DNA from: Syncephalis fuscata
Lineage: Eukaryota > Zoopagomycota > Zoopagomycetes > Zoopagales > Piptocephalidaceae
Reading direction: 5' to 3'
Length of the DNA stretch: 64,000 nt
Assembly: GCA_025786725.1 (NCBI GenBank)
Contig: JAHLTZ010000060.1
Location: 1 to 64,000 of the forward strand
The notes beneath the pieces are model-generated. The model was not told where the DNA came from, searched no databases, and worked only from the letters and a program-made list of their open reading frames with translations. Positions 8,719 to 35,320 of the stretch are shown here, piece after piece. The stretch's first letter is position 1. Each line of letters opens with the position of its first letter. A program made the translations under genes and the position numbers.

Positions 8719-10167
8719 ATGTCTAGTATAACCCGTTCTGGTCGTAGTACGCGTAACTCAGCAGCCGCAATGGCTACTGACGAGCCGGTACCCGACAATA
8801 TGTCCGAAGTAAGCGGTACTGATGAAGTAGCATCAACTGAAACAGAAGAAACCGTTGATGAAGTCGTCCAAGTTGACCAACCAATAGCTACGGTTCAACA
8901 ACAAGAAAATATTACTAGTACTCGTCCGGTGACATTCGCTACTCCAATCGATACACCTACTGATACTAATAACTTAACGGTAGCTGTACCCGTCGCTAGT
9001 CAAGCATTAGTAGATAACTTATTACGCACCATTCTAAATCCTACCAACGGACTCACTGTTCACCAAACAGCTCAATTGACAATGTCGCTGGTACACGCTT
9101 TTCGACAACTCAACCCAGGAGACCCAAATCCTCCAATTCCTACCTACACACCAGCTCCACAGTTCACTGTAGAAACGCCTGGCACTGCCCCAATTGCAGA
9201 ACTTGGTCCACCTGACAACAACACCACACCCACACGCATCAACAGACGAGTGTCCATTTCGTCCATAGATTCGGACGACTCTGACACCACATCCATCACC
9301 TCATCTTTCCCTTCCATTGCAGATAGTCAGCCTGAACCTGTTGCTGTTGTACCACCTGTGGTCACACAGCCACCCGACTTGAGTGTCCCTCAAGTGATGA
9401 CTAAACTACCAAAAATGGATATTGACAAACTAGATTTTAAAGCGGATCCTTTTGAATGGCTGCGTAGCTTCCACTTGATTGCTGGTTTGTCAGGATGGGA
9501 TGAACCCACGAAATGCAGTCGATTGATGTACGGTCTGCGTGACCGCGAGAATGCATGGTGCCTACTCAATATGCCGCGTGTCCAATCGTACCAGCCTGGC
9601 CTATTCGCGACGTTAGTAAAGGAGTTAGAGATTAAATGGTGTGCTGGTGATCCAAAAGAAGCGTTGAAAAACAAATTTTACTTACTTCGCTTAAACGACA
9701 AAGAAACATTATTCGAATACGCCGATAGAGTTGAAAGAGCTGGTACCAATGCCAAAAGGACGCCTAGACAAATTTGGAAACAGATCAAAATCGGTTCTAA
9801 CGACTACGTCCGCAGCAATGTCCGCTCGTTACGAATCCGTTCTATCGATGACTTTCGATCTGTTGGTCATAGTATTGAATTAGGAAGATACACCCATAAG
9901 TTACTGCATGCGGCTAAGGCCAGCATAAACGTTGTTACTAATGACCAATCTCTGTCCGTGTCCAAGACGGCACCCAATGCAATGCAAGTAGGTACCCGTT
10001 CCGGCAATAACCGTCGCCCCAAACAACAGCCAGCTACACGTCGCTTCCCTTGTACCCTCTGTGATGATACGAATCACTACACGCATCAATGTCCAAATTT
10101 AGCCACTGCCCGTGCATCGATAACCAGTAAACTACCTGCTGGTGATGCCAAACAGGCGGAAAACTAA
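8719..10167 (+). CDS. gag: Retrotransposon Gag
   Basis: About 482 residues from the ATG at 8719; frame also open a few codons upstream without ATG. The first ~230 residues are Thr/Pro/Val-rich and low-complexity. The region from about 235 (LPKMDIDKLDFKADPFEWLRSF onward, through RLMYGL and FYLLRLNDKETLFEYADR) is the Ty3-type retrotrans_gag capsid core. A zinc knuckle, CTLCDDTNHYTHQC (C-x2-C-x4-H-x4-C), lies near residues 445-458 and would bind element RNA. Pol lies in the -1 frame and is open only from about 10146, so gag and pol frames overlap by roughly 20 nt. Confidence 0.93.
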   Translation: MSSITRSGRSTRNSAAAMATDEPVPDNMSEVSGTDEVASTETEETVDEVVQVDQPIATVQQQENITSTRPVTFATPIDTPTDTNNLTVAVPVASQALVDNLLRTILNPTNGLTVHQTAQLTMSLVHAFRQLNPGDPNPPIPTYTPAPQFTVETPGTAPIAELGPPDNNTTPTRINRRVSISSIDSDDSDTTSITSSFPSIADSQPEPVAVVPPVVTQPPDLSVPQVMTKLPKMDIDKLDFKADPFEWLRSFHLIAGLSGWDEPTKCSRLMYGLRDRENAWCLLNMPRVQSYQPGLFATLVKELEIKWCAGDPKEALKNKFYLLRLNDKETLFEYADRVERAGTNAKRTPRQIWKQIKIGSNDYVRSNVRSLRIRSIDDFRSVGHSIELGRYTHKLLHAAKASINVVTNDQSLSVSKTAPNAMQVGTRSGNNRRPKQQPATRRFPCTLCDDTNHYTHQCPNLATARASITSKLPAGDAKQAEN

Positions 10168-10178
10168 ATGGGACGTCG

Positions 10179-13100
10179 ATGTGTAAGGGTAACGACGTCC
10201 CACCCCAAGTAAATCCCTTATCGACCATATCCGCAATTAATGTTGCTTCCGCTACCACATTATTGCAGGATGGAACGATTAATGGACATATGGTATCGAT
10301 GTTAATTGATACGGGTGCTGAACGAACGGTTATTTCTAGCGCTATATGTAGAAATATTGGCCTTGTCTTAGGCCCGTTCACTGATTCATTCGTTAGATTA
10401 GCTGATGGCCGACACGCTAACACTCGTGGCCACTCCTTGGTGGATATCGAAATAGCTAGCGTTGTTCGGAAGGTTAAAGCAATAGTATTAGATACTTCCC
10501 CGTATCCAGTATTATTAGGCATGGATTGGTTATCCGCCGCTGGTGCCAGCATTGATTGCGCAGCTGGCAAATTGTTTATTGATGGCCAATCCATTGACAT
10601 GAAATTGTCCAACACTCCATCGCACGGTATACATGTAGTTGCCGTGGCTGGAAAAGTCCGTAATGGCCGGATACTTTCTAAGTTACAACAGCACTTAGTA
10701 AGACGGGATATCCGACCTACCGAGCAAGTTGATAATGCCGTGGTATCATTGGCACTATCCCAACTACCTCGAGTAGATCTGTCTGAGTCCATCCGACTAG
10801 CCCGACTCAACAAACTGTTACTGGAATATACGGATCTATTCGCGGTAAATCCGAATAATCCACAAGCAGCTACTAGAGTTCGCCATACCATTAGTACTGG
10901 TGACTCTAAACCCATTAATACTCCTCCGTACCGTTCTGCTTACCGTCAACGTGAAAAGATAACTGAAGCCATTAACGATATGCTTGAGAATGGCATTATT
11001 GAACCATCTCGCAGTCCTTGGTCATCTCCAGTTGTCCTTGTTGGTAAGAAAGATGGTGGTGAACGTTTTTGTGTCGATTATCGTAAATTGAACGACGCCA
11101 CTAAGAAGGATTCATATCCTACGACTCGCATTGATGATGCACTAGATATGTTATCTGGTGCCTGTTGGTTTACTACTTTGGACCTTGCCTCTGGCTATTG
11201 GCAAATCCAAATGAACGAAGCAGACAAGGAAAAGACAGCCTTTGTTACACATGCTGGCCTATATCAATTCCGTGTCATGCCATTTGGCTTATGCAACGCG
11301 CCAGCGACCTTTCAACGATTAATGGACGAAGTATTGGCTGGTCTGAAGTGGCATTCATGTATTGTTTACTTAGACGATATTATTGTATTTGGTAGGACGT
11401 TTGATGAACACCTACAACGTCTACGAACAGTTTTTAATCGTCTACGCGATGCTGGACTTCGCCTTAAACGTAGCAAATGTCACTTTGGCCAACAACAAAT
11501 AGCCTATCTTGGCCATGTCGTGAATGCTAATGGTGTTAAACCAGACCCAGATAAAGTCGCTGCTGTGCATAATTTCCCTCGCCCTACTGATATACGTGGC
11601 TGTAAAAGTTTCCTTGGTCTTGCATCCTATTATCGACGCTTTATTAGCCGTTTTGCCGAACGAGCCGAGCCCATTCGTCGCCTTGAGAAGAAAGGTACAC
11701 CCTTCGTGTGGTCAGACGAACAACAAACCGCCTTCGATGATTTACGCACTACATTGACTAGTGATACTGTGTTAGCTTATCCAACACTATCTAAGCCGTT
11801 TCGAATTGAAACTGATGCTTCTACTTACGGTTTGGGCGCAGTATTATCGCAACAAATCGACGATGGATGGCGACCGATTGCTTATGCCAGTAGAGCGTTG
11901 AATGATGCACAAAAGAACTATTCAGCTACCGAATGCGAATGTATGGCTATTGTATGGGCCATAGAGAAGTTCCGACCTTATATATACGGTAGTGAATTTA
12001 CAGTAGTCACTGATCACTCAGCTCTACGTTGGTTAATGTCACGACCCAATCCAACTGGTCGACTTGGCCGTTGGGCATTGAAGTTACAGGAATACCGTCC
12101 GACTATCGAATATAGGCGTGGTACTGCCAATGCCAATGCAGATGCCTTGTCACGAGATCCGTTGCCATGGCACGAACTAGTTGAACTAGCTGAACAAGAC
12201 AAAGTAGAAGAAGTAATGCACATAGCTGAAAATACAACACCGTTGCTACCAACTGAAGAAGAATGGGTATATGCACAACAAACAGAGTTAACTACTGCTG
12301 ATGTATATGCTTATTTACAACAAGGTGCTGAGTATATGACGCTAATGTCCGATGCTAGTCGGCGTGCTTTACGAAAACGTGCTAAACGCTTTGAGCTAGT
12401 GACTGGTCGGTTGAAGAGGAAGGTTATGAAAGGCGATGTGATGACAGAGTTGTTGGATGTTGTGCCTAATCAATATCGACCTATAGTTCTATATCATTGT
12501 CATGATAAAGAATTAGCTGGTCATTTGGGTATTACTCGTACTTACCAACGACTACGTCAGAGCTACTGGTGGCAGAATATGCATAGTGATGTATGCGACT
12601 ATGTGACATCGTGCACAGTATGTCAGAAGATACGACGAATACACCAACGATCTGGATTATTACAATCACTACCAGTGCCAGAAAAGCCATTCGACTTTAT
12701 TGCCATCGACCTTATGGGTCCATTTACTGAGTCTGAACATGGTAATAAGTACGTAGCTGTATGCTGTGATTACACCACGCGTTGGATTGAAGCCGCTGCT
12801 ATCCCAGATGCAACTGCAGAAACTACAGTACAGTTCCTGATGAATAACGTTATTGCTAGACACGGCATGCCTAGTGTACTACTTACTGATGGTGGTACTA
12901 ACTTTACATCTGGATTAACTGCCGGTATTGCGAAACGACTTGGCATACAGCGACGGATTACCTCCGCACGACGTCCACAGACTGACGGACTAGTTGAGCG
13001 TTTTAATCATACACTTGCATCGATGATCGCTAAGTTCACTAGTGATTTCGAAAAAGATTGGGATAAATATCTACCCCTGCTATTGTTTGCATACAGAACA

Positions 13101-13706
13101 ACGAAACAGTCATCCGCTGGCCACTCACCATTTCAGTTACTATTCGGCCGAGAGGCGACTCAGCCATTAGAAGTAGCAGTTGGCCCTGTTTCAACGGCTC
13201 CAGTTCGGTTCCATAAGAGAGTAGAAGAATATGAGGAATACGTCACCGATCTGCAACTCCGACTCAATGATGTCAGGGAAAGAGCCAAGTTAATGATTGA
13301 AGCGGCCCAACGTCGGCAGTCGGCTAGGTATAATAAAGGAAGAAGAAAAGAACCATTTAAAGAAGGTGACTTAGTGTGGATAGAAGAACAACTACTAAAA
13401 GGTACGAAGTTGAGAAAGATGAAAGAAAGAATGAAAGGTCCTTTTAAAGTGATAGAACAAACGTCAGCTGTCAACTACAGACTCAAGGATTTGGAAACAC
13501 AAAGAATGTTTTCAGAACACGCTGATCGAATAATTCCACTTCACACACGACCTGCCCATTTATTATTACCCAACATATCAATTAACCAAATATCATTATC
13601 TAACCTTTCCACTAATTCACTTAATGTGTCAACGGGACGTTCGACACTTAGTGAGGGAGTGATGTGGCGACATATTCAGAACACGTGGTACACGGGTACC
13701 ACGTAA
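10179..13706 (+). CDS. pol: Retrotransposon Pol (protease, RT, RNase H, integrase)
   Basis: Continuous frame of 1175 residues counted from ATG 10179. Aspartic protease motif LIDTGAERT (D-T-G at about 44-46). Reverse transcriptase includes FTTLDLASGYWQI and the catalytic YLDD near residue 397. RNase H begins with RIETDASTYGLGAVL (about 543). Integrase has the HHCC zinc region (HCHDKELAGHLG...CTVCQK, about 773) and the DD-E triad in FIAIDLMGPF, LLTDGGTNF and TDGLVERFN. A GPF-type C-terminal module (MKGPFKVIE) follows. The last ~14 codons read into the 3' LTR. All catalytic residues I looked for are present, so the polyprotein looks functional. It may be expressed by -1 shifting or reinitiation; no canonical slippery heptamer is seen. 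Confidence 0.96.
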   Translation: MCKGNDVPPQVNPLSTISAINVASATTLLQDGTINGHMVSMLIDTGAERTVISSAICRNIGLVLGPFTDSFVRLADGRHANTRGHSLVDIEIASVVRKVKAIVLDTSPYPVLLGMDWLSAAGASIDCAAGKLFIDGQSIDMKLSNTPSHGIHVVAVAGKVRNGRILSKLQQHLVRRDIRPTEQVDNAVVSLALSQLPRVDLSESIRLARLNKLLLEYTDLFAVNPNNPQAATRVRHTISTGDSKPINTPPYRSAYRQREKITEAINDMLENGIIEPSRSPWSSPVVLVGKKDGGERFCVDYRKLNDATKKDSYPTTRIDDALDMLSGACWFTTLDLASGYWQIQMNEADKEKTAFVTHAGLYQFRVMPFGLCNAPATFQRLMDEVLAGLKWHSCIVYLDDIIVFGRTFDEHLQRLRTVFNRLRDAGLRLKRSKCHFGQQQIAYLGHVVNANGVKPDPDKVAAVHNFPRPTDIRGCKSFLGLASYYRRFISRFAERAEPIRRLEKKGTPFVWSDEQQTAFDDLRTTLTSDTVLAYPTLSKPFRIETDASTYGLGAVLSQQIDDGWRPIAYASRALNDAQKNYSATECECMAIVWAIEKFRPYIYGSEFTVVTDHSALRWLMSRPNPTGRLGRWALKLQEYRPTIEYRRGTANANADALSRDPLPWHELVELAEQDKVEEVMHIAENTTPLLPTEEEWVYAQQTELTTADVYAYLQQGAEYMTLMSDASRRALRKRAKRFELVTGRLKRKVMKGDVMTELLDVVPNQYRPIVLYHCHDKELAGHLGITRTYQRLRQSYWWQNMHSDVCDYVTSCTVCQKIRRIHQRSGLLQSLPVPEKPFDFIAIDLMGPFTESEHGNKYVAVCCDYTTRWIEAAAIPDATAETTVQFLMNNVIARHGMPSVLLTDGGTNFTSGLTAGIAKRLGIQRRITSARRPQTDGLVERFNHTLASMIAKFTSDFEKDWDKYLPLLLFAYRTTKQSSAGHSPFQLLFGREATQPLEVAVGPVSTAPVRFHKRVEEYEEYVTDLQLRLNDVRERAKLMIEAAQRRQSARYNKGRRKEPFKEGDLVWIEEQLLKGTKLRKMKERMKGPFKVIEQTSAVNYRLKDLETQRMFSEHADRIIPLHTRPAHLLLPNISINQISLSNLSTNSLNVSTGRSTLSEGVMWRHIQNTWYTGTT

Positions 13707-19442: not shown

Positions 19443-20417
19443 TTATACTGTATTTACAAATAAAAATATTATATGCCATATAATTAGTGTATAAGGCATC
19501 AATATTAATATTAAATAATCGGTACAATCAGTAAATGGCATAGTTAATATATGGTCAGTCGACGTATAATATAACTTACCGCCTATTAATATTAAGTTAT
19601 TTATATGCATAATACATGACATAATTAGTGCATAGTTAGTTAACATACAACACAACTTACAGTCTATTAATATTGTTATTTATACACATAATACATGGTA
19701 CATAATTAGTGCATAATCAGTTGATATATAATATAACTTACCCCCTATTAATAATAAGTTATTTATATGCATAGTACATGACATAGTTAGTACATAGTTA
19801 GTTAACATACAACACAACTTACACCCTATTAATATCAAGTTGTTTATACGCATAATACGTGGTACATAATTAGTGCATAATCAGTTGATATATAATATAA
19901 CTTACAATCTATTAAGTTATTTATACGCATAATACATGGTGCATAGTCAGTGCATAATTAGTCAATATATAATACAACTTACATTCTATTAATATTAAAT
20001 TATTTATACGCATAATACATGGTACATAATTAGTGTATAATCAGTCAATATATAATATAACTTACTGCCTATTAATATTAAGTTGTTTATACGCATAATA
20101 CGTGGTACATAATTAGTACATGATCAGTCAATAATAGTATAACTTACAACCTATTAGTATTAAGTTATTTATGCGCGTAATAAACGGTACATAATTAGTG
20201 CATAGTCAGTCAATATACAATACAACTTACTCCCTATTAATATTAAGTTAGAAATACTGTTAGTAAGCATGATAATATAATATATCTATTGTCATCGAAA
20301 CATACGACGAACCAAAGTTGATTTATCATCTACCATAGCTGGTTTAGCATCTACTATGGTTGTAGCGGCTATCAAAGCCACAAGGACGATGCAAATAACG
20401 GCAATGGAAAGCTTCAT
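19443..20417 (-). CDS. Secreted peptide precursor assembled from nine consecutive 3-nt exons
   Basis: Exon 1 (20306-20417) encodes a signal peptide (KLSIAVICIVLVALIAATT) and a short pro-region ending DKSTLVR plus one base, followed by donor GTATGT. Intron 1 has a perfect TACTAAC branch motif and ends TTAATAG. Then come nine 3-nt exons on the minus strand: 20231-20233 GGA, 20148-20150 GTT, 20066-20068 GCA, 19983-19985 AAT, 19906-19908 ATT, 19823-19825 GGT, 19742-19744 GGG, 19661-19663 ACT, 19580-19582 GCG. Each is preceded by an AG and followed by GTAAGTT. The last intron ends AAATACAG at 19448 and exon 11 supplies TA TAA. In phase 1 this reads R-S-C-K-Y-W-W-D-C-V-stop, 47 residues in all. RR is a Kex2-type site, and the two cysteines could close a ring. 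Splice signals and the repeat are seen; transcription and processing are inferred. Confidence 0.7.
19465..20240 (-). repeat. Tandem array of near-identical introns (~82-bp unit)
   Basis: About nine copies of a unit of 77-83 bp (74-80-nt intron plus a 3-nt exon), with a decayed copy at the 19470 end. On the minus strand each unit reads GTAAGTT, an AT-rich body with CACTAATTATG (branch-like), a TATAAATAACTTAATATTAATAG end, then three variable bases. The plus-strand flanks ACTTAC and CTATTA are unchanged at all nine junctions. Two sub-types alternate: the units at 19661 and 19823 share TTAACATACAACACAACTTAC, and those at 19742 and 19906 share CAGTTGATATATAATATAAC. This points to duplication in two-unit blocks. 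Confidence 0.9.
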
Positions 20418-29078: not shown

Positions 29079-30105
29079 TTATATTAGCGTTAATAGTGAT
29101 ATATAGTTGGTAATGGTTGCAACCCGACTAGAATAGCCTGTTCTAGTTGTATTTATATTAACGCCACTACTGTAGATATTATTTTGCCGATTCACCGTCA
29201 AGGTGCTGGAGTCACTGCTCGTATGTTTTTTTGTACCATAGTTCACAAGTATTGTCGATGTAATATACCTAGATAGGTTTAGTAATATTCTGGATAATAT
29301 AAACTACTTACCAATCAATAATGTAAAAGTTCGTTGATAAGGGCCCTCCCATTTTAAAAATAATAAAGCTACAACATAATATATTGCAGAAAACTACCAA
29401 ACACATGGTCTGTATACCGTCATGAGCCAATCGCTTCCATGCGTCAGATCCATATTTTTTATAATGCTTATAGGTTACTGCACTAAAGATACCTGAGAAA
29501 AGTATATTGCTAGGAATCATCATACCGATCCAGTACCATACAACAATATGTTGATGATTAAAAGTGCAACCAGAGTGTTCATCCAGTGTAACATATGACC
29601 ATCCGTATGCAATAATAAAAAAGAAAAACTGTGGAAGAATGCAAATGGTGCCGCAAATAGCTACCCAGCGTTGCGACAACAGCACAAGGTAAGCTTTGTA
29701 AAGTATAACAATGCTGTTAAAAAATACAGAAAAACCTATACTCGCCATAATGCACCAAATAAGTATTCTACAGTTCAGCTGGTTGGTTAGTGATGCTACA
29801 ATAAATAGTATAGTATTTACGATGCCTAAAAATGACGGCAGAAAATAGCATAAATCAGATAGTTTGTACGACTGTGCCTTAATATGCCGGAATAGACGTA
29901 TCAGATTGTAGGCAAATAACGTCCCCAGCATGGTTGCAAGTGCTAGTTGAATATGAAGTCCCATTATTCGGTTCTGAACTTCAACGTTGGGTGTTTCGCC
30001 GCGACTTGATCTCATATTTATGTAACTAAGAAAAGCAATTTCACCGAGCGGATGCAATGGAATACCAAACAGCTTGGTTGCATTTGCTTCCCATGGTTCA
30101 TCCAT
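29079..30105 (-). CDS. Seven-transmembrane receptor-like protein, copy A
   Basis: Exons 29312-30105 and 29079-29268, phase 2, 327 residues. After a short extracellular N-terminus with one N-glycosylation site (EANATKLF), hydrophobic segments appear at LALATMLGTLFAYNLI, LCYFLPSFLGIVNTILFIVA, ILIWCIMASIGFSVFFNSIVIL, WVAICGTICILPQFFFFIIAYGW, VVWYWIGMMIPSNILFSGIF, and TMCLVVFCNILCCSFIIF, with another near LSTNFYIIDWYITSTILV. About seven passes and a Ser/Thr/Asn-rich cytoplasmic tail fit a GPCR-like topology. Conserved Cys in TM3 and in GCTF of the loop could form a disulfide. I cannot place it in a named receptor class. Copy B lies 1.6 kb upstream on the same strand (31754-32760). Confidence 0.75.
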
Positions 30106-31753: not shown

Positions 31754-32760
31754 TTATATATAGTTGGTGATAGCTACAAACCGGCTAGAATAGCCTGTTT
31801 CAATCGCATTTATATCAGCATCAGCACTGCGGATATTATTATGTCGATTCATTGCCAAGTTGCTGGAGTCATTGTTTGTGCGTTTTTTTGTACCATAGCT
31901 CACGAGTATCGTTGATGTAATATACCTAGATAGGTTCTAGCAATGTTTTGGATAATACAAGTTACTTACCAATCAAAATATAAAAAGTCCTTGAGAAAAG
32001 TCCTCCCATCTCAAGAAGAATAATGAAACAGCATATTAGGTTACAAAAATTACCAAACACATGGCCTGTATACCGTCATGGGCCAATTTTCTCCATGCGT
32101 CAGAGCCGTATCTTTTATACTGCTTGTAGGCCATAGTACTAAAGATTCCCGAAAAAAGTATATTGCTAGGAATCATCATACCGATCCAGTACCATAAAAC
32201 AATAGAATGCTGGTTAAAAGTACAACCAAATTGTCCATCCAATGTAACATATGACCATCCATATGCAATAATAAAAAAGAAAAATTGCGGCAGAATACAG
32301 ACAGTACCGCAAATAGCTACCCAGCGTTGCGACAACAGCACAAGTAAGCTTTGTAAAGTATAACAATGCTGTTAAAAAACATCGAAAAGCCTATACTTGC
32401 CATAGTATACCAAACAGTTATTCTACAATTCAGATGGCTCGTTAATGATGCTACAATAAATAGTATAGTGTTTCCAACGCCTAATAAAGACGGTAGAAAA
32501 TAGCATAAATCAAAAGCGTTATAAGGCTGAGTTTTAATATGTCGAAATAGACGTATCAGATTGTGAGCAAAAAAAGGTCCCAGCATAGTGATAAACGCCA
32601 GCTGACCATATAATCCTTTCATTCGGTACCAAGCATCGATTTCAAACGTTTCACCACCATTTGATTTTGTATTCACAAAACTAAGAAAATTCATTTCACC
32701 AAGTGGATGCAATGAAATACCAAACAGCTCGGTGGCGTTATTCTTCCATTCTGTATCCAT
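31754..32760 (-). CDS. Seven-transmembrane receptor-like protein, copy B, two frame breaks
   Basis: Tandem paralog of 29079-30105 with the same exon layout: first exon from the ATG at 32760 (MDTEWKNNATELFGI matches copy A), a GTAAGT intron, and a second exon ending TNYI-stop at 31754. Strings such as LIRLFRHIKTQ, LCYFLPSLLG, WVAICGTVCILPQFFFFIIAYGW and YWIGMMIPSNILFSGIFS are near-identical to A. The frame breaks twice: at 32344, where A has two G (plus strand CAAGGTAAGC) and B one, and at the A5 run 32045-32049, where six would restore CNLICC. Both are 1-nt shortfalls in homopolymers. Either assembly errors or a young pseudogene. Confidence 0.75.
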
Positions 32761-35320
32761 ATCAACACTATATCCAAGTATAACTGAATTACAAACTATA
32801 AAAATTGTGTATTGAAAGGAATAAAAAACGCTTAGCATAAAACTAAAGATCCTAAGGCGAAACAATGAGAGCAAAATGCATGGTTTGCATCAACAGGTTT
32901 TAACTTAAATAGAAATTTTCTATTTACAAGCCTGCTTTTATACAGCATAAAAGGTAAACTATTATAACACAAATACCGGTATTCGGGCCGATTAACCGAT
33001 AAAACGTATCACCAATGGCGTGCAGCTATCCGTAATAGTTGGCATAAATATTTCCTATTTACTATTTTCTAATAACAATAAAAATATTTAATATACCCCT
33101 ACTTCGTTTTTACACAAACTATTATTTAATTGGCAAGTGCCTTATTATTTCATCTTGTATTTTAAATTAAAAAATTGCTACTGCTATTAGCTATTCAAGC
33201 ATATCTTCGAATTGTAATTATATGTTATAATCCATTGTTTAGTTAGAATTTTTAACATCAATAGTTTATGGTTATATATTACAAAAACCAATTTGCCGTA
33301 TTGTTGTTTATTGAATTACAATGTTGTTTAATAAATGATGTATTAGTTTATGATTAGTGTCGGATTAAAAATTAAAAAAGCCACAAGACCTTAATGGTAT
33401 ATGTCACTTTTATATTCGTAGTACATGGGTAGCATACGCTCAGTATAAATACACACATGACTGCCTATATTTTAGTAAAGCTGTTATATTTACTCTGTTA
33501 TCGTTTTGCTACTATTTAATCTAGTCTTTCTACGATAAAACTATTTTAAATACTAATAAAACACACACACAGACTAATTAGCTAAGTAATAATGATAACC
33601 GTTTTATAAATAGTCAACTACAGTCTATCAATATTAATTTATGTAATATTGGCTTCAAATAATTATCATACTAACATATGTTAAGTAGATAAATAGTTAG
33701 TATGGATAATTATTTTAAATTACAGTTATTGCACTAATATAAATACTAAATGTGAATGTGCTATATAAATGTTTTAGTGTTGGATATTGTTTATTGTAGA
33801 ATAATTATGTATTAGTTTATAGCAGCTTGAGCACACAGATTAATTATATACATATTTGCAATAGGTCCATAGACAGTTATGTTTAATTTATTATTGCTTT
33901 TGCTTGCATCGAATAAACCTGGATAAATATAACTTATTTTGAAGATACAAATATATAAATTAGATTAGTATACAACATATAACCATTTAGTATTTATCAT
34001 AACTACCGACTTAAGCTTGGCGTTAGCTTATTACATTGTGTACTATTTAAACAAGCAGTGCAGTTTTAGAATAAAGTCATAATAGTATGACTAAATAGAG
34101 TTGTTTACTATGCCATTCACACAAGTTTGGCACATATCATTTTTATGCTTAATCGGTTAAGCCGTGTAATCTAGATTTAATCCATCAGCTTATCGCGTTG
34201 TAAAGAGCTTACCAATATTAATGTCCAGGCAATATAATGACAGCAATAAAGACTCTTTTGCAATAAGTGTACAAGAAAACACACGGTTTACTACATATTA
34301 CACTAATAGTTACATGTACTGAAGATTCTACTGGAATGGTTGTAGCTGCTTATACGGAAGACTAAGAGCAATTGCGTAGTACATTGGTCATAGACGGTTT
34401 TAGACGACTCATGTTTTATTACGACATTTTCCACAACTATCACAATACATAAGCTGGCTTTACCGCTCCTCCGAACCAACACTGCACCTTTATCTTCTCT
34501 TTCTACTCTTTACCACTCGATATACACTACACTCATTCGCCCTTACTGCCATTTGTTGTCCAATATGCTTTGCACTTGCTAGCCGTCTAATGATTACAAG
34601 ATCACTGCTGGTTGCTGCTATATGTACTAAGGTCGGTAAACGGGCGTGGGAGGTGCGATGCAGTTGTGCCTTTTGGCTATGAAGCACTGGATATGCAGTG
34701 TTCTAGAAGCTATATATCACGCAGTGTGTACTCCAGCATGCTGTAGAAGGCGCTTGTCTGCACATAGTTGATTGGTCTTTTGTATAGTAACATTGGTACG
34801 CTTACCGTGTGTTTGTTTGCGAGGTTGCCTTGCTGAGTATCTGGCTGTTGAGGCGACATAAGGTTTGCGCTTAAGATATCTGATATCTGATGGTGCAGAG
34901 CAAATGTTGTTTGGACAACCACTACTTATTGCGGTGTAGTCAAGCAGCAAACATCATTGGCACATGTGGCTCATCTCGTTTACTGACCCTCTTCAATAGA
35001 TATAGATTTGAGAGATATTTAGATTTGGCAAGAACAGGACCACAATATGCTGTACAGTCATCCGGTTTGTACTAGTCTATCATTATTTATGTATTTCTTT
35101 AAATAAAGCTTTTTTACAAATACTAAACAGTTTATTAACTATTTATCGTCATCATGTTCAATTGTGCGAATATTATCGATTTTAGTCATTTGAACATTAA
35201 ACAAACACTAAATTGGTAATAAACTGCTTAAAGTTTGTAAGAAAAAAAACATTATTTTATATTTAATATAACTAATAAACATTTTATTAAAATCTCAAGT
35301 ATATCAGTAAATTAAGTGCA
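32761..35320. other. Gene-poor region
   Basis: Largely AT-rich. A GC-richer island at about 34440-35080 has overlapping short frames on both strands (for example LARTGPQYAVQSSGLY on the plus strand, and a minus-strand frame with LPTLVHIAATSSDLVIIRRLAS, faintly ankyrin-like). None shows a full domain or exon structure; possibly a gene remnant. The 35140-35200 stretch shares CATCATGTTCAAT and TTTTAGTCATTTGA with R1 copy B. Confidence 0.35.

Follow-up and report, generated by a model that had tools for sequence, protein, structure and literature searches.

Candidate secreted-peptide genes of Syncephalis fuscata with mature regions cut into exons of one codon's length

Analysis of a 64,000-nucleotide window (the whole stretch of DNA under study, contig C257 of the 29-Mb, 299-contig Syncephalis fuscata assembly that was searched genome-wide) points to a minus-strand gene that is very probably protein-coding and part of a large S. 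fuscata family of predicted secreted peptides, in which the mature peptide would be cut into exons of one codon's length that are all joined. The assembly matches P0121, a database protein of S. fuscata, with 100% identity at two sites. Between an exon for a putative signal peptide and a terminal exon with the stop, the gene has nine exons of 3 nt (Table 1). The layout claimed by the first-pass annotation for positions 19443..20417, namely exon 1, a GTATGT donor, TACTAAC in intron 1 and nine TAG-NNN-GTAAGTT junctions, is present as described, and re-reading the sequence returned the same triplet order (GGA GTT GCA AAT ATT GGT GGG ACT GCG) with a stop 2 nt into the terminal exon. By eye, exon 1 looks like a putative signal peptide, and the 3′ UTR resembles that of intronless paralogs. 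The introns measure, in order, 72, 80, 79, 80, 74, 80, 78, 78, 78 and 132 nt. The sequence TAGNNNGTAAGT occurs ten times in the window, nine of them inside the array, against 0.79 copies expected from shuffles, and TRF reports the array as a tandem repeat with a period of about 83 bp, or double that. Because exon 1 ends in phase 1, the exon triplets differ from the codons: with phase-1 introns, each codon draws its first base from one exon and its other two from the exon after it. After splicing, the codons are CGG AGT TGC AAA TAT TGG TGG GAC TGC GTA TAA (R S C K Y W W D C V stop), giving a product that ends ...STLVRR-SCKYWWDCV-stop. The repeat unit had been described as an intron plus one codon, which is correct as to length, one codon's worth per unit, and incorrect as to the codons, which straddle exons separated by phase-1 introns. 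An Rfam search of the whole window at gathering thresholds gave no matches. Elsewhere in the window, a gag-like ORF (8719-10167) and a pol ORF (10179-13706) on the plus strand mark a retrotransposon at 8719-13706, which we take to be of Ty3 type, and two similar minus-strand ORFs (29308-30105 and 32317-32838) resemble multi-pass membrane proteins and have no Pfam match.

Table 1. Parts of the array gene, with positions counted from the first nucleotide of the window.
Feature	Position	Strand	Length or basis
Exon 1: putative signal peptide and pro-region, encodes MKLSIAVICIVLVALIAATTIVDAKPAMVDDKSTLVR and ends one base into the following codon (phase 1)	20306..20417	-	112 nt
Intron 1, 72 nt: GTATGT...TACTAAC...TAG	20234..20305	-	sequence read
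One-codon-length exon 1 of 9: GGA	20231..20233	-	junction pattern
One-codon-length exon 2 of 9: GTT	20148..20150	-	junction pattern
One-codon-length exon 3 of 9: GCA	20066..20068	-	junction pattern
One-codon-length exon 4 of 9: AAT	19983..19985	-	junction pattern
One-codon-length exon 5 of 9: ATT	19906..19908	-	junction pattern
One-codon-length exon 6 of 9: GGT	19823..19825	-	junction pattern
One-codon-length exon 7 of 9: GGG	19742..19744	-	junction pattern
One-codon-length exon 8 of 9: ACT	19661..19663	-	junction pattern
One-codon-length exon 9 of 9: GCG	19580..19582	-	junction pattern
Nine repeat-derived introns, eight separating the 3-nt exons and one, ending AAATACAG, behind the last of them	19448..20230	-	TRF and sequence
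Terminal exon, coding part: TA plus stop TAA	19443..19447	-	3′ UTR next

Taken alone, an open frame across nine triplets is weak evidence, and it is the genome-wide family that lifts the frame of this gene above chance. The first 28 bases of exon 1 were found at 242 places with up to 3 mismatches (reversed control, 0), and the terminal acceptor followed by the stop and the beginning of the 3′ UTR at 60 places when one mismatch was allowed and at 82 when three were (control, 3). AATAG-NNN-GTAAGT junctions number 3,183 genome-wide, compared with 54 for a four-base spacing (reversed-pattern controls, 28 and 50), and these counts suggest that the genome holds about three thousand one-codon exons. 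Individual arrays reach 41 internal exons in an open model and 42 in one that is not open. The original description of a single gene with nine single-codon exons is accurate for this locus and too narrow for the family, some of whose exons span two codons. Duplicated segments, near-identical or inverted, contain several of the family genes (L004/L005; C1:475325 and C1:534399; C2:225326 and C2:244718).

A profile search of a protein collection at E up to 1, a search of limited reach, listed 14 family members, every one from S. fuscata. None of the annotated family proteins inspected is a spliced array product, and the models of two of them (P0125 and P0127) seem by eye to run on into an array intron. 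For the intronless members, Pfam returned no clear match to any of 17 sequences (best E 0.0096; nine weak families, each in one member) and a PDB profile search no clear relative (best E 0.66). Structure prediction for the intronless family was poor (mean pLDDT 65, pTM 0.35).

Array genes were spliced in silico with a caller that uses splice-site scores and spacing only and is blind to reading frame. It demands AG, prefers GTAAGT and penalises any exon length but 3; its exon-1 donor rule was widened midway, when the first peptides were already known, and its junction profiles were rebuilt in each run from all loci in the set, test arrays included. The resulting set of 34 genes excludes L043, in which no donor was found, the incomplete second array of L053, which lacks a terminal exon, and L006, which is the same gene as L047, while L098-L100 and the C2:225326 array stand outside it, having been added later or handled separately. 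Its 827 internal exons comprise 786 of 3 nt, 34 of 6 nt, one of 12 nt and six that are not multiples of three, such that the mature peptide, exon 1 being exempt, is encoded mostly by tiny symmetrical exons. A regular-expression count over 14 arrays, which involves no splice model and, unlike the caller, carries no exon-length preference, gave 273 spacings of three and nine of six, with one each of zero, two, four and five. Exon 1 ends in phase 1 in all 34 genes. Frames are open to the terminal exon in 27 of the 34; all 27 belong to the 29 genes in which every exon length is divisible by three, and when exon order was shuffled gene by gene, a mean of 7.8 of these 29 stayed open, with a maximum of 15 in 2,000 rounds, figures which, like the other shuffle results, overstate the count of independent cases, the paralogs being related. 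The seven genes not open by the caller are L039, L046, L048, L049, L065, L090 and L097, of which L046 may be intact, its stop coming just one codon too soon. The earlier claim that serial 3-nt exons between copies of one intron encode a peptide is thus borne out by the 27 open frames among 34 array genes, with the intronless paralogs as an independent check.

Triplet columns are nearly as variable as four letters allow (entropy 1.84-1.94 bits), and the splice sites beside them are nearly fixed, in part through the caller's own rules. Cysteines number 135 in the spliced frame and 14 and 37 in the other frames. The motif CxxCxxxC occurs in 15 of 26 array genes with at least 17 exons (shuffled mean 0.27, maximum 3); examples of spliced products are GESLTCEECRSKCKEWKDYISACVFKCRQTECE from L068 (29 exons) and GDPAQCAACVENCKRRTGLDWGKCRNGSCRTICA from L091 (31 exons). 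Two arrays first examined once the caller was set, L100 (33 exons, its terminal exon just past the stretch covered) and the C2:225326 array (41 exons), are both open. L099, chosen to test an array, has no exon 1 by pattern in the stretch examined. L098 (C1:574900-576300) was picked by its junctions alone; with hand-picked junctions its spliced end reads ...GVAEAAPPGFTQD-stop. This end lacks cysteine, the 3′ UTR is similar and the 5′ end, outside the stretch examined, may be a different one. An element of about 400 bp with a tRNA-like end (SINE-like by eye) lies inside array introns of L039, L047, L049 (two copies), L055 and L057; the spliced frames of L047, L055 and L057 are open despite it, and introns of 491-497 nt in L091, L092 and L095 may contain the same element.

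The intronless paralogs provide a comparison that does not depend on splicing models. L004, L005, L007 and L008 resemble the array genes in exon 1 and 3′ UTR and encode the mature peptide between them in one uninterrupted stretch without introns, and by eye the likeness of the 3′ UTRs to those of array genes starts about at the terminal exon of the latter. Among 30 translated contiguous loci (L054/L089 and L004/L005 being protein-identical pairs and L052 ending early), 15 carry the pattern C-x2-C-x3-C-xn-C-x3..6-C-x3..5-C; the remainder start with a spacing of 2-4 (three) or 3-3 (four) instead of 2-3, or with neither (eight). The array gene L091 and the contiguous L051 both have a 2-3-10-4-3 cysteine spacing with 16 of 31 residues identical, and their alignment score of 94, the best of the array-to-contiguous comparisons, stands against at most 44 in 100 shuffles. 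When mature regions only were aligned to 24 contiguous paralogs, 15 of 26 spliced peptides scored above each of their 100 shuffles and 11 did not. Two spliced array peptides used as genome queries at E up to 1e-12 found no near-identical processed copy; their best intronless matches were 59-64% identical over the precursor, a value helped by the common signal peptide.

In-frame joining was examined further in the 28 of 34 genes with internal exons of 3 or 6 nt only. Joins between neighbouring exons (i to i+1) create 2 stops in 599, compared with 37.2 (sd 4.4) in shuffled order, while for joins from i to i+2, +3, +4, +5 and +6 stops are as frequent as in shuffled order (38 of 571 against 35.9 for i+2). 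This bears on the idea that 3-nt exons are freely skipped, so that one gene would yield a library of peptide variants differing by single residues. Skipping any 3-nt or 6-nt exon leaves the frame intact, and published schistosome micro-exon genes (MEGs) are said, in the part of the source available, to use combinatorial splicing (PMC4350168). On the other side, stops are avoided at neighbour joins and not at skipped joins, and it is the full-length spliced products that have the cysteine spacing of the intronless paralogs; we consider a combinatorial library unlikely. Judging from the sequence data, selection appears to have kept the full chain readable and not to have prepared the genes for skipping, with which occasional skipping would still be compatible, and the fully joined reading is supported as the one that selection would see.

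The same observations weigh on the view that a splice-like repeat merely grew inside an intron and that the real mRNA runs from exon 1 straight to the terminal exon. TRF does call a tandem repeat, and the direct join is in frame too wherever the array exons are all multiples of three. Such a minisatellite would nevertheless have to account for the cysteine pattern, the open frames, the depletion of stops at neighbour joins and triplets of nearly maximal variability, as well as for array and intronless genes having exon 1 and the 3′ UTR in common and differing between them; it seems to us highly improbable. Its strict form, a minisatellite free of coding constraint, does not agree with the open frames and the neighbour-join depletion.

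For the evolution of the arrays, units of nine paralog pairs, some of which share a gene, were aligned by intron similarity, and triplets differ more than introns in every pair. In the four close pairs, defined by equal exon number and compared with splice sites trimmed, 32 of 288 triplet sites differ as against 243 of 5,708 intron sites (odds ratio 2.8, p 3e-6; a 2.6-fold rate); tested singly, two of the four are significant. These pairs show 21 nonsynonymous codon changes and one synonymous change, and 13 of 14 cysteine positions are kept. The arrays could alternatively be formerly coding genes that are now mostly pseudogenes, the intronless copies doing the work, and both the seven frames not open by the caller and the absence of a recognisable exon-1 donor in L043 agree with decay. 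The 27 open frames, the retention of cysteine codon positions though triplets outpace introns, and the excess of nonsynonymous changes make general decay very unlikely.

The split layout itself may be neutral: arrays would have spread by tandem duplication and been tolerated, with triplets evolving fast under ordinary diversifying selection on an effector-like peptide, to which the introns are irrelevant, a reading we place a little below an even chance. It agrees with the intronless members, which are very diverse too, so introns are not needed for diversity; with intron identity, which falls slightly with distance, as plain tandem duplication predicts (0.772 for neighbours, 0.733 for distant copies in an array, 0.72 between genes); and with some triplets that change while their flanks stay almost untouched. 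Against it, paralogs differ by whole codon-exons: L096 has three more than L069 in a loop, and L039 is without units found in L042, an array of 34 internal exons. Further, by eye, the last triplet of L002 and part of its preceding intron match an earlier unit of the same array, and in three pairs the 80 flanking intron columns differ more beside changed triplets (6.3 versus 2.5, permutation p 0.0004), as fits exchange of segments. The proposal in the first-pass annotation that tandem amplification wrote the peptide is supported in part, by the slightly greater likeness of neighbouring introns and by the gain or loss of whole units between paralogs.

In a tree of exon 1 plus 3′ UTR with 12 array and 25 intronless rows (L080, L085 and L088 omitted for want of a 3′ UTR anchor, L043 and L048 included though not open), the two layouts are mixed and a single array clade is rejected. 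At least 8 layout changes are needed, where shuffled labels give means of 10.2-10.3 and 29-41 of 500 shuffles are as low; the tree is weakly resolved, with 7 of 33 inner branches starred and these forcing only 2 layout changes, and gene conversion may distort it. The array gene L047 (EPCWRPRRPLWCP) is sister to the intronless L008 (KPCWPRPWC) with support 97/78 on a branch that is not starred. Repeated intron loss via cDNA is the simplest reading of how intronless genes arose, gain being possible as well; for intronless APC11 copies in plants, the available part of one report gives reverse transcriptase-mediated intron loss as the explanation (PMC8831610). We tentatively suggest, at slightly less than even confidence, that the layout serves as a device of codon cassettes: recombination or gene conversion in near-identical introns would insert, delete or swap single residues without frameshift, quickly rewriting the loops between fixed cysteines, and spliced copies would return via cDNA as intronless genes.

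In the proposed pathway, exon 1 would encode a signal peptide and a pro-region ending at a dibasic site. Array members would carry the mature peptide in exons the length of one codon or occasionally two, set between introns of about 78 nt that are copies of a single sequence and have diverged. The pre-mRNA would most likely lose its introns one at a time, probably in sequence by intron definition, because an exon of 3 nt is too short for splicing complexes to fit at both of its ends. All exons would be joined and the frame would close on the stop in the terminal exon, after which the precursor would presumably be secreted and cut after RR by a Kex2-type protease. The released short peptide, SCKYWWDCV for the gene in the window, would probably be disulfide-bonded. 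Syncephalis, a zoopagomycete genus, lives on other fungi, and the peptides may be used against or towards the host fungus or rivals. Recombination in near-identical introns could add, drop or swap single residues with the frame intact, which may be why the layout persists.

No report of serial arrays of one-codon (3-nt) exons was found in the open-licence literature searched, a body of text that mostly excludes subscription journals. In the layout proposed here, each unit of the tandem repeat contributes as much coding sequence as one codon. Introner elements are thousands of near-copies of one intron per genome, inserted at scattered positions in unrelated genes. The arrays described here likewise hold many near-copies of one intron; these copies differ in standing in tandem, within one gene family and at about one intron per codon, a comparison made on arrays chosen by the family's exon 1 and hence blind to introner-like copies in unrelated genes. 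Schistosome MEGs are described, in the excerpts available, as secreted, with a coding region of mostly very small symmetrical exons and a mature part of high dN/dS (PMC4350168), with exons of 3-81 bp and introns of up to 5 kbp (PMC10526429). Mostly tiny symmetrical exons are a shared feature, and secretion, predicted for S. fuscata from the look of exon 1, may be another; so far as those excerpts go, MEG exons vary in length and MEG introns are long, whereas nearly all S. fuscata exons are 3 nt and the introns are tandem copies of about 78 nt. The S. fuscata arrays further differ from MEGs in having intronless sister genes and in showing no sequence sign of tolerance to skipping. Aphid bicycle genes, as covered by the accessible text of PMC9168663, are putative effectors that evolve fast and average about 17 exons, with numerous small internal exons all in one phase, and their relative megacycle has more than 100 microexons. 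Their exons are of phase 2, where all 34 S. fuscata array genes use phase 1, and one-codon exons and tandem copies of a single intron, both found in S. fuscata, are not among the features that this text describes. Isolated microexons of comparable size are known from the 1-nt exon of Arabidopsis APC11, for which intron definition and recursive splicing were suggested (PMC4674806), and from the 3-bp exon of Drosophila homothorax (PMC7392893), both sources being available in part; these cases indicate that spliceosomes are able to include exons of 1-3 nt. The plant and animal examples, as there described, are isolated in ordinary genes, whereas the S. fuscata exons form serial arrays that carry the mature product.

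The array genes would represent the extreme form of the split gene: most of those examined encode the mature peptide in exons of at most two codons. Within a class of genes built from microexons, the S. fuscata arrays would be the limiting variant. Gene finders are suggested to miss such genes, since two models among the 14 annotated family proteins seem to run through into an array intron. The arrays pose the testable question of how a spliceosome could accurately join 30-40 exons of 3 nt without exon definition. Equally testable are how the arrays originated and whether introns act as recombination spacers for the residue-by-residue diversification of secreted peptides.
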